A stretch of 64,000 nucleotides of DNA from Halorubrum cibi. GTDB taxonomy: Archaea > Halobacteriota > Halobacteria > Halobacteriales > Haloferacaceae. Position numbers and translations under genes: made by a program. The stretch lies in the NCBI RefSeq assembly GCF_900182635.1, contig NZ_FXTD01000001.1:1-64000 (forward strand), written 5' to 3'. Below, in pieces: positions 5,133 to 54,224 of the stretch (within the stretch, counting starts at the first letter, position 1; every line of letters starts with the position of its first letter). The notes beneath the pieces are model-generated. The model had not been told where the DNA came from. It searched no databases and saw nothing but the letters and a program-made list of their open reading frames with translations.

Positions 5133-5602
5133 TATCGGGTGGGATTTCCCGTGGTTCCCTCTTAACGGCCTCGGTTACGCCGGAACCGCGGCGGTCGGTG
5201 TAACAGCGGTCGGTGTGATTGTGATGATTGATCTGGCGCGCGCGAGCAACGCGCGCGAGGGAGGCGGGCCGGCCGGCGCAGTTGCGGTGCGGTTTCGTGC
5301 CGGCCGGCTCGCCGAGGTTGGGGAGGCGTGAGGTGCGGTGCTGGGCGGGTGGGACTCAAAGGGGCAGCCACGAGGAGGCCGGAGGCGACGTAAGCACCAC
5401 AGAGAGCGAGCAACGCGAGCGATGAGGAGCGCAACGAGCGTCCGGCCTCCTCGTGGCTGGGGCTTTGGACGTGTTCGTCGCGCCAGCAACCGAGTATAGC
5501 CGAGCGGCTGGGGCTTTGTGGGTGTTCACTGCGACAGAAACGACCTATGGCCGAGCAATTGGGACTTTGGAACCGTCCAATGCTTCGAAACCGACGTTCG
5601 GA
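5133..5602. repeat. Gap holding degenerate element A copy 1
   Basis: The 470-nt gap contains copy A1 of element A, read on the minus strand, at about 5230-5530. The main stem arms are 5366-5383 and 5441-5458, 18 bp perfectly complementary, continued by a C-G pair (5365/5459). The flanking GGGTGGGACTCAAAGGGG and GGGGAGGCGTGAGG motifs are intact. At 5449-5580 the tail is repeated three times with increasing decay (GGCTGGGGCTTTGG, CGGCTGGGGCTTTG, CAATTGGGACTTTGG). No TATA box at the spacing seen in the complete copies was found. Confidence 0.75.
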
Positions 5603-12878: not shown

Positions 12879-13044
12879 GGCCGCGACGGCCGTATCGGTT
12901 CGTTTTTCGCGACGCTTCACGGCGAGCCGCAGTACCGTCACCGACGGTCGAGTGAACCGAGTCCAGCGGAGCCACCCGATCGCGTCCGCTGACGTTCTAT
13001 TTTCGAATCCGATTACGGATGAAACGCCCGGTAGAACGGGCGTG

Positions 13045-13440
13045 CTTATAGAGCGGGTGTTTCATGAGAGAATCGGATAGATAGAATGAGAGCGTTGCTG
13101 TCGCGGTGAACGTCTCCAAAGCCCCAGCCGCGAGGAGGCCGTACGCTCGCTGAGCTCCTCGGTCGCTCGTTACACTTGCTCCCTCCGGTGCTTACGTCGC
13201 CTACGGCCTCCTCGCGGCTGCCCCTTTGAGTCCCACCCGACCGCAACCGCCCAGCACCTCACGCCTCCCCAGCCTCGCGGCTTCCTCCGCTTCGCTTCGG
13301 TCGCCGCGTCCCTCGCGGGCGGTTCGTGGTCGCCATAGGCGACCACTCACCGGCGCAGGGCGAGAGCGAAGCTCTCGCTTGAAGCCGGCGGCAGAGCCGC
13401 CGGCGACGCCACCGCATCGGCGATCGCTCGTTCCTTCACC
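13045..13440 (+). ncRNA. Element A copy 2: putative structured RNA with promoter
   Basis: CTTATA at 13045 is followed 71 nt later by CCAAAGCCCC (13116). The main stem arms are 13126-13143 and 13202-13219, 18 bp perfect, extended by a C-G pair. After it come the shared linkers GCCCCTTTGAGTCCCACCC, CACCTCACGCCTCCCCAGCC and TCCCTCGCGGGC, then a hairpin GTGGTCGCC-ATA-GGCGACCAC flanked by CGGT/ACCG. Further GAGAGCGAAGCTCTC and GCCGGCGGC hairpins follow. Reading frames inside are proline- and arginine-rich and not protein-like. Confidence 0.65.
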
Positions 13441-13481
13441 TGTATTGAACAGTAGGGATCGAGCATCCGCGAGCGGAGCGA

Positions 13482-13626
13482 GCGGTTCACCGACGGAGCC
13501 GTCGAAGACGGCGGAGTCGGCTTTTTCCCTCCAGGTTTTTCGAGGAGCGGTTCCCGAAGCGAACGCAGTGAGCGCCGGGTACCCAACGAGAAAAAGGTGG
13601 AAGGGTACCCGACGAGAAAAAGGTGG
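13482..13626 (+). repeat. Element B copy 1
   Basis: The sequence runs GGTTCACCG, then a hairpin CCGAC...GTCGG (13490-13520) with inner CCGTC/GACGG, then about 54 nt identical to copy 2 at 29101 (beginning CTTTTTCCCTCCAGG, ending GCAGTGAGCG), and a GAGAAAAAGGTGGA tail. The tail is duplicated in tandem here (second copy 13602-13626). CTTTTTC can pair with GAAAAAG of the tail. It ends at the 3' end of the convergent DUF5784 gene. Confidence 0.75.
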
Positions 13627-33025: not shown

Positions 33026-33721
33026 GCGAGACCCCCGAGTCCGTCGGTCTCATCGATCTCGTCTTCCGGTCGTCGTCGAACTCGCAGAGCGGCCGAAGAG
33101 CCCGCGACGTCCCCCGGTCGGGAGCTCGAGACGGTATGGCTGTCACCAAACATGCGACCCCGTAACGGAGGGGACCGGATAACTGTGTCCACTTCGACAA
33201 GGGTCGCCCCAAGCCGTCCGGCGATGGGAACAGATACGATACGCTCGGAACAGGCGAAGCAACGACCGAATGCGGCGGCGCGCCGGTGAGCGGGCTGAAG
33301 GCCCGCGAACCGCCCGCGAGGGACGCGGCGAGCGGTGAAACCGCGAGCCGCAGCGAGGCGCACCGCGCCTCTGGCAGCCGGACGTAGTCCGGCGACGAGG
33401 CTGGGGAGGCGTGAGGCGCGGTTGCGGGGCGGTCGGGTGGGACTCAAAGGGGCAGTCGCGAGGCGGGCGCAGGCGACGTAAGCACCGCAACGAGAGAGTG
33501 AGCGAAGCGAACGATCGAGTGAGGAGCGCAGCGAGCGTGCGCCCGCCTCGCGACTGGGGCTTTGGAGACGTTCACCGCGCCAGCAACGATCCTCTTCTAT
33601 TCTCCTCGATCACTCACGAAACACCCGCCATATAAGCCATCAAGATCTAACGGCCGTTTCACACAATATGTCGTCGAAATATAGGATCCGACGGAGTCGC
33701 CCGTTCGCGACGATCCGACCC
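33026..33721. other. Gap with element A copy 3
   Basis: There is no gene in this 696-nt stretch. Positions 33026-33230 show nothing identifiable, 33231-33636 is element A copy 3, and 33637-33721 is AT-richer leader or terminator sequence of the OapC gene side. Confidence 0.65.
33231..33636 (-). ncRNA. Element A copy 3: putative structured RNA with promoter
   Basis: Read on the minus strand, CTTATAT starts at 33636 and CCAAAG starts 71 nt later at 33565. The stem arms are 33454-33471 and 33538-33555, 18 bp perfect but differing from copies 1 and 2 at several positions with matching changes on the other side. Further perfect hairpins are GCCGGAC-GTA-GTCCGGC (33377-33393) and GAGGCGC-ACC-GCGCCTC (33355-33371), plus a GCGGGC...GCCCGC stem near 33289-33306. 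The linkers of copy 2 are all present. Confidence 0.65.
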
Positions 33722-38454: not shown

Positions 38455-38735
38455 GCGATCTGCGGAAGGGGTCGGTAGTGCGGTCGGCGCGCCCGGTCGC
38501 GGGCGGTTGGCCCGCGACCGGCCCGCGAGGGAGTCGCTCGCCCCCGGCGAGCGACGAGGCTGGGGAGGCGTGAGGTGCGGTGTGGAGGTGCGGTGTGGGG
38601 GTTCGGGGCGGGCGTGCGGTGCGGGGTGGGACTCGAAAGGGCAGCCGTGAGGCGGGGGCTTTGGAGGTGATCCCCGCAGGAGCGACACCGGATCGCTGCG
38701 CAATCGGGGAATGAAACGGAGTAGGGTATCGACTA
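38455..38735 (-). repeat. Collapsed element A copy 4
   Basis: In this gap between convergent genes the 3' half of element A is well kept on the minus strand: the GGGGAGGCGTGAGG linker, a hairpin GTCGCTCGCC/GGCGAGCGAC (about 38531-38555), CCCGCGAGGGA and a stem CGGTCGCGGG/CCCGCGACCG (about 38497-38523). The main stem is gone: GGGGTGGGACTCGAAAGGGCAGCC runs within a few bases into GGGGGCTTTGGAG, as if the hairpin had been deleted precisely. No TATA box is found. Confidence 0.7.
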
Positions 38736-53773: not shown

Positions 53774-54224
53774 CCTTCCCGGATCGTATACTCCGTATGC
53801 TTATATGGCGGGTGTTTCGTAAGTGATCGAGGTGAGAAGAAGGGAGTAGTTGCTGGCGCGGTGAACACGTCCAAAGCCCCAGCCACGAGGACTCGCGCGG
53901 CTCGCTGCGCTCCTCGCTCAGTCGCTGTCGCTCCTTCACTGCGGTGCTTGCTTCGCCGGGCTTCGTCCTTCCGAGAGACTTCGTCTCTCGACTTCCCGCT
54001 CGCTGTGCTCGCGGGAATCGCGACTGCCCCTTTGAGTCCCACCCCGCACAGCACCTCACGCCTCCCCAGCCTCGTCGGTCGCCTCCGGCGACCGACTCCC
54101 TCGCGGGCTCCTCGCGCGCGTTGGGCGCTCGGAGGCACGCCACCGCTCAGGCGATCGTTGTTTGGACTGTACCGACCGATCCCGATCCGTTTATTCCTCG
54201 GAGTTTGGTACGAGACACCGTCAC
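53774..54224. other. Gap with element A copy 5
   Basis: There is no gene in this 450-nt stretch. It contains element A copy 5 on the plus strand (53800-54175) and, after it, the promoter stretch of the arginine-deiminase remnant (GTTTATTCC at 54188-54196). Confidence 0.65.
53800..54175 (+). ncRNA. Element A copy 5: putative structured RNA, altered stem
   Basis: CTTATATGGCGGGTGTTTCG starts at 53800 and CCAAAG follows 71 nt later at 53871, as in copies 2 and 3. The left arm begins CAGCCACGAGGACTCG (53879-) and the right arm ends ATCGCGACTG before CCCCTTTGAG. Nine outer pairs form if G-T wobbles at two places are allowed, then the arms diverge and internal hairpins (CGAGAGACTTCGTCTCTCG, TTCCCGC/GCGGGAA) take over. 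The downstream linkers CACCTCACGCCTCCCCAGCC and TCCCTCGCGGGC are intact. Confidence 0.6.

Follow-up and report, generated by a model that had tools for sequence, protein, structure and literature searches.

Dispersed non-coding repeats that share a long stem may be copies of an RNA gene, copies of a mobile element, or both. This question is raised by element A, five copies of which (A1 to A5) an earlier note had described in a stretch of 64,000 nucleotides of the Halorubrum cibi genome, in the following called the window, and had read as a likely structured RNA. With a probability of about 0.7, we consider element A to be a haloarchaea-wide family of short, non-coding, MITE-like mobile elements that carry a hairpin folding on one strand and that would be moved in trans by IS6-type transposases in some lineages.

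Five copies of element A in the window

A covariance model of the core found all five copies where the earlier note had placed them, with E values of 9.7e-29 for A2, 1.5e-27 for A3, 6.3e-25 for A1, 6.4e-16 for A5, and 6.9e-5 for A4, in which 86 model positions were skipped. The next-best match in the window had an E value of 0.35. The scores of A1 to A3 are partly self-matches, because these copies were among the sequences from which the model was built. The 18-bp arms reported for A2 (13126-13143 and 13202-13219) are perfectly complementary. The features of the five copies are listed in Table 1.

Table 1. Parts of element A in the window, with strand and basis of assignment
Feature	Position	Strand	Basis and remarks
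A1 5' box GAGGTTGGGGAGGCGTGAGGTG	5313-5335	+ (folded strand)	Boxes
A1 core hairpin	5348-5479	+ (folded strand)	Covariance model; 5' box and core span 5313..5479
A1 3' side, GGGGCTTTGgagGTGTTC end unit in tandem	5459..5578	+	Units at 5459, 5510, 5561; 51-nt period
A2 core hairpin	13105..13237	- (earlier note: plus)	Covariance model, strand tests
A2 5' region on folded strand	13255..13450	-	End motif ~13434-13450, then variable hairpins
A2 5' box CGAGGCTGGGGAGGCGTGAGGTG	13255-13277	-	
A2 3' end box TGAAACACCCGCTCTATAAGCA	13043..13064	-	Conserved in 22 genomic copies
A3 core hairpin	33436..33576	+	Covariance model, orthologous-site comparison
A3 5' region	33243..33418	+	End motif 33243-33259, then variable hairpins
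A3 5' box CGAGGCTGGGGAGGCGTGAGGCG	33396-33418	+	
A3 3' end box CGAAACACCCGCCATATAAGCC	33617..33638	+	
A4 5' box	38555-38577	+	Whole A4 span 38555..38675
A4 core without hairpin	38625-38675	+	Covariance model
A5 core, interrupted by double-hairpin insert (~53970-54018)	53860..54043	-	Covariance model, boxes
A5 5' region	54052..54177	-	Box 54052-54074, end motif ~54161-54177
A5 3' end box CGAAACACCCGCCATATAAGCA	53798..53819	-	

A TATA-like box, TATAAGCA, is conserved at the 3' end boxes of A2, A3, and A5, close to the folded strand's 3' end. It could be an outward promoter or an inward one on the other strand. Halorubrum (window 5459-5578), Haloarcula rara, and genome G113 (loci L215, left flank, and L167) have tandem arrays of an end unit that is formed by GGGGCTTT and about 10-18 nt and repeats about every 45-57 nt.

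Copy number and range

The genome to which the window belongs (3.18 Mb, 35 contigs) contains about 60 copies of element A. An 18-base anchor, GCCCCTTTGAGTCCCACC, was found there 31 times as an exact match; with 3 or fewer mismatches allowed it was found 64 times, compared to 2 times for the reversed control. In BLAST searches all 52 Halorubrum genomes were positive. With the covariance model element A was detected in 21 of the 28 genera of the family; across the class, 86 genera were sampled and 70 of them contained it. The copy number in 15 other genera was 5 to 74 per genome (E up to 1e-6), copy counts from the larger searches being lower bounds. All 36 positive genomes of a phylum-wide sample belonged to the same order as the H. 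cibi genome, and the named genomes among the matches listed for the flank pattern were all haloarchaeal. An exact-pattern search of viral contigs and a search of phage records gave no match and six haloarchaeal plasmids gave weak ones, and a virus or plasmid origin was rejected on these grounds.

The earlier note had not recognised the family, and neither does Rfam: the window had no match at the gathering score and A3 had none up to E = 10, which led us to reject a known RNA family. Searches of the literature by topic, by sequence, and by the names of elements yielded no description of element A; only the name MITEHarch3 surfaced.

Inverted ends and target duplications outside Halorubrum

In several genera the cores are arranged as back-to-back twins with a spacer of 20-29 nt, which is often palindromic, and with matched outer ends; in one twin (L150) these ends are inverted and nearly perfect over about 47 bp. 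In the metagenome-assembled genomes QH_7_66_36 (G426) and QS_9_67_17 (G427), solo cores are flanked by 17-bp inverted repeats, GGTAGTGTTCAGATAAG, and end sites of this sequence with up to 3 mismatches number 155 and 193, respectively, compared to 0 in the control. The TIR-bounded elements of these two genomes are 121-430 bp long, non-coding, and present in tens of copies. We compared the octamers flanking 42 TIR-bounded elements, mostly from G426 and G427 and some from other haloarchaea. In 15 cases at least 6 of the 8 bases matched, with three perfect matches among them, whereas 0.49 such cases were expected from re-paired flanks.

IS6 elements create target duplications of 8 bp. In G001, a close relative within Halorubrum, GGTAGTGTTCAGATAAG ends flank transposase genes (L328, L333) whose 211-aa product matches the NCBIfam IS6 model with E = 5e-59, and in the H. 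cibi genome similar end pairs lie 680 bp apart (L324, L329); the genomes in which the IS6 transposase was found are not those of the TIR-bounded elements. Because they combine inverted ends, 8-bp duplications, and ends common to IS6-family transposase genes, the TIR-bounded forms of element A can be classified as IS6-type MITEs in those lineages. Among the features of such a MITE, element A is short, non-coding, and multicopy in general, and TIRs common to an autonomous element and the 8-bp duplication are features of the TIR-bounded forms only. The earlier note had said that its reading would be refuted if the family matched a known IS end; this is partly so, since element A has such a match in relatives and not in the H. 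cibi genome.

Archaeal IS6-family insertion sequences have the same 17-bp ends (L328, L333) as the hairpin elements of G426 and G427, as well as 8-bp duplications. Unlike element A, they code for a transposase, have ends about 700 bp apart, and lack such a hairpin. The archaeal IS6 members have been argued to be only distantly related to IS26 (PMC6807381). MITEHarch3 is an ISFinder entry without transposase that is listed under the IS6 family (PMC6807381). Compared by name and listing alone, it is a haloarchaeal IS6-type MITE like the TIR-bounded form of G426 and G427 and could be identical with that form or a relative of it. Our literature search found no paper describing a covarying hairpin in MITEHarch3. 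If MITEHarch3 is element A, the mobile part was already known and the structural part remains new.

Ends in Halorubrum and Haloarcula

The 5' end motif of the Halorubrum copies, GGTCAGTACAGACGAAG, has a loose similarity to the GGTAGTGTTCAGATAAG ends. In these copies, whose 3' boundary is uncertain, we found neither an inverted partner of this motif nor a signal of target duplication, and the IS6 link is therefore supported for the elements of other lineages rather than for the window copies. In 30 loci no autonomous element bearing the end motif of Halorubrum was seen as a partner. For Haloarcula, an end motif chosen by eye, CAGTTCCTAG, was present within 1 mismatch at 4 of 30 flanks, with 0.1 expected, and is suggestive only as an element end. 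A tentative alternative is that a single RNA or single-stranded DNA module, conserved across the Halobacteria and functional in its own right for the element or for the host, forms a structure-selected cassette common to several transposon families, with IS6-type ends in some lineages and other ends in Halorubrum and Haloarcula.

Genomic setting, the A3 site, and loss of the hairpin

In gene calls made with a simple purpose-made gene caller, an overlap with predicted genes was found for 2 of the 239 copies. The orientation of element A relative to neighbouring genes is mixed and there is no constant layout, for which reason a cis-regulator of one gene class was rejected. A linked protein gene was rejected as well, since the neighbours are diverse and largely housekeeping genes; they include some aminoacyl-tRNA synthetase, gatB, and tRNA genes, again in no constant layout. 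No recurrent gene family that would suggest a partner was found among the neighbours, and neither a recurrent recombinase gene nor a RAYT-like one. About five copies (L014, L047, L050, L065, L076) lie within ~500 nt of a tRNA gene, where 0.8 was estimated for random placement uncorrected for intergenic bias.

The presence or absence of element A at an orthologous position was followed at one site, that of A3, in 24 Halorubrum genomes including that of H. cibi. The element was present in 4 of them and absent in 20. The four occupied sites carry different hairpins: in one the loop is inverted, and in one the hairpin has been swapped for unrelated hairpins.

The hairpin is a replaceable part of element A that is deleted, inverted, or swapped in some copies. 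In A4 it is gone, and two very short TIR-bounded elements (L357, L364) have no hairpin at all while their ends are intact. As such hairpinless copies exist, the hairpin is dispensable for the persistence of a copy. In A5 it is interrupted by the double-hairpin insert, which is missing in the otherwise near-identical copy L014. In L008, L090 (298-430), and L290, the inner loop is inverted between the hairpin arms.

These observations bear on the possibility that the copies are independent small-RNA genes, or RNA elements of untranslated regions, with a cellular function and with paralogues generated by duplication or recombination instead of transposition. Strong, strand-specific covariation across the class (see below), conserved loop sequences, the intergenic position of the copies, and the TATA-like box conserved near one end in Halorubrum would all suit such genes. 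Inconstant orientation towards the neighbouring genes, a mostly empty A3 site, hairpins that are lost, flipped, or exchanged, and inverted ends with target duplications in other genomes argue against them, and we regard this explanation as unlikely. Of the structured-RNA reading in the earlier note, the covarying stem, the non-coding character, and the dispersal are real; with its mostly empty orthologous sites, its replaceable hairpin, and the IS6-type MITE ends in relatives, element A is no plain RNA gene.

Strand and architecture of the hairpin

The earlier note had listed A2 as plus; both folding energy and the bias of GU over AC indicate that the opposite strand folds. The better fold was obtained on the reverse complement of the A2 plus orientation for 65 of 66 core copies, with a mean folding energy of -70.7 kcal/mol compared to -60.2 kcal/mol. 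The ratio of G.U to A.C was 356 to 33, 90 to 25, and 67 to 13 in three counts, and because G.U exceeds A.C, the folded strand is assigned to the reverse of that orientation.

On the folded strand the parts of the core are, in order, GGTGGGACTCAAAGGGGC, the long stem, the inner helix, and GGGGCTTTGgagGTGTTCACC. The ladder-like inner helix alternates two-base Watson-Crick steps with GA/GA loops, and in many copies a GAA triloop closes it. Most of the GA, AA, and A loop positions are nearly invariant (52-56 of 56 copies), and the two-base steps between them covary. The flanks read ACTGAAAG / CTTTC outside Halorubrum and ACTCAAAG / CTTTG in Halorubrum, a change that is compensated, and in the 13-bp stem nearly all bases have changed over most of the class with pairing kept.

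Covariation and probable selection on the fold

Covariation in a large cross-genus set confirmed that element A is a dispersed non-coding family with a covarying stem. In a 56-row alignment built independently of the structure, the score for covariation was 0.365, compared to 0.135 in shuffles and at most 0.071 with the arms slid; two columns of helix 5 were wrongly paired in the structure given to the model, an error that lowers the score and does not raise it. For 116 copies of other genera, the score was 0.501 compared to 0.150 in shuffles, in an alignment fitted to the model and hence biased towards it. An independent test of the arms was performed with 125 copies, Halorubrum included, that had been picked by two flanking boxes alone and that contained 112 different left arms. 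In these copies 92% of the arm positions pair (88.5% Watson-Crick and 3.8% GU), compared to 53% (44.3% and 8.9%) after the arms had been re-dealt among the copies. The changes are compensatory on one defined strand, as is characteristic of structured RNA. Since DNA copying from arm to arm gives neither the asymmetry of GU and AC nor conserved mismatches, we infer that the hairpin is under selection as a single-stranded fold, most likely of RNA, action as RNA being likelier than action as DNA.

Such a fold could also be a single-stranded DNA site recognised by a recombinase or transposase, comparable to IS200/IS605 ends or integron attC sites. The strand bias suits any single-stranded fold, as G.T pairs form in DNA too, and the mirrored twins with their palindromic spacer would fit. 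The loop contains mini-hairpins of the GCGAAGC type, which are very stable in DNA. We nevertheless consider this quite improbable: TIRs with 8-bp duplications are the pattern left by a DDE transposase that works on double-stranded DNA, the hairpinless elements (L357, L364) have intact ends, and no recurrent recombinase gene was found among the neighbours. Least credible is an origin of the matched arms in the repair of palindromes at the DNA level (by template switching or arm-to-arm gene conversion) without selection on the fold, of which the loop inversions (L008, L090, L290) and hairpin deletions would be typical products, but which predicts perfect palindromes and equal numbers of G.T and A.C, whereas GA/GA, AA, and A mismatches are fixed in place (52-56 of 56 copies for most) and GU is far above AC. 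The strand asymmetry and the conserved mismatches largely refute it, and it may have contributed to the outer stem.

A probable MITE-like family with a structured cargo

In the preferred reading of element A as a MITE-like family, an IS6-type transposase would move the copies of the TIR-bounded lineages in trans; this is suggested by the 17-bp ends, which also flank the 211-aa IS6-family transposase gene in Halorubrum. The Halorubrum copies would have the same kind of mobility with other ends. The hairpin would be cargo that is kept by selection on its fold and most likely acts as RNA in transcribed copies. Within a transcript it might, as a guess, be a stable block or a site for a protein and so protect either the neighbouring genes or the RNA of the element itself; our best guess is that the hairpin shields or ends transcripts and thereby makes intergenic insertions tolerable.

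The cargo of MITEs is usually assumed to evolve freely. New here would be a MITE-like family whose cargo is under structural selection over most of the class. The alternatives are a mobile element that depends on a folded RNA (or DNA strand) and haloarchaeal cells that hold very many copies of a structured RNA. Naming element A would allow annotators to label part of the unexplained intergenic sequence of haloarchaea.

The PATEs and SMRs of Haloquadratum resemble element A in being short, transposase-free, rich in palindromes, high in copy number, and nested (PMC3119063). PATEs have neither inverted ends nor target duplications, and SMRs have inverted ends and no duplications (PMC3119063), whereas the TIR-bounded form of element A has both. 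An identity with PATEs, which are derived from IS200/IS605, was rejected for this reason. REP/BIME, REPIN, and similar palindromic repeats of bacteria are, like element A, intergenic, multicopy, hairpin-forming, and non-autonomous. Element A differs from REP/BIME and REPIN in its much larger size (about 120-430 bp), its class-wide loop architecture, a stem sequence that changes freely, and the absence of a RAYT-like partner gene among the neighbours.

Nested modules, an adjoining repeat, and contig ends

A double-hairpin module (..GATGACGAGAGAGC..GCTCTCTCGAAC..) is nested in element A in the H. cibi genome (L009, L064) and in other haloarchaea (L174, L176, L245, L258), and the loop of element A looks like a place where secondary hairpins insert. 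Other nested modules, such as GCGCCTCTGGCAGCCGGCG with 11 copies, are almost exclusive to Halorubrum. In the window, a second repeat (GAGCATCCGCGAGCGGAGCGAGCGGTTCACCGACGGAGCCGTCGAAGACGGCGGAGTCGGCTTTTT..) adjoins the end of element A at 13455-13600 on the plus strand. It ends in a terminator-like hairpin with a T-run and was found within ~270 nt of the core in 8 of 61 copies of the H. cibi genome. Several contigs of this genome end at GGTAGTGTTCAGATAAG ends (L319 on C7, L334 on C20, L339 and L344 on C6), because of which IS6-type elements probably break its assembly.
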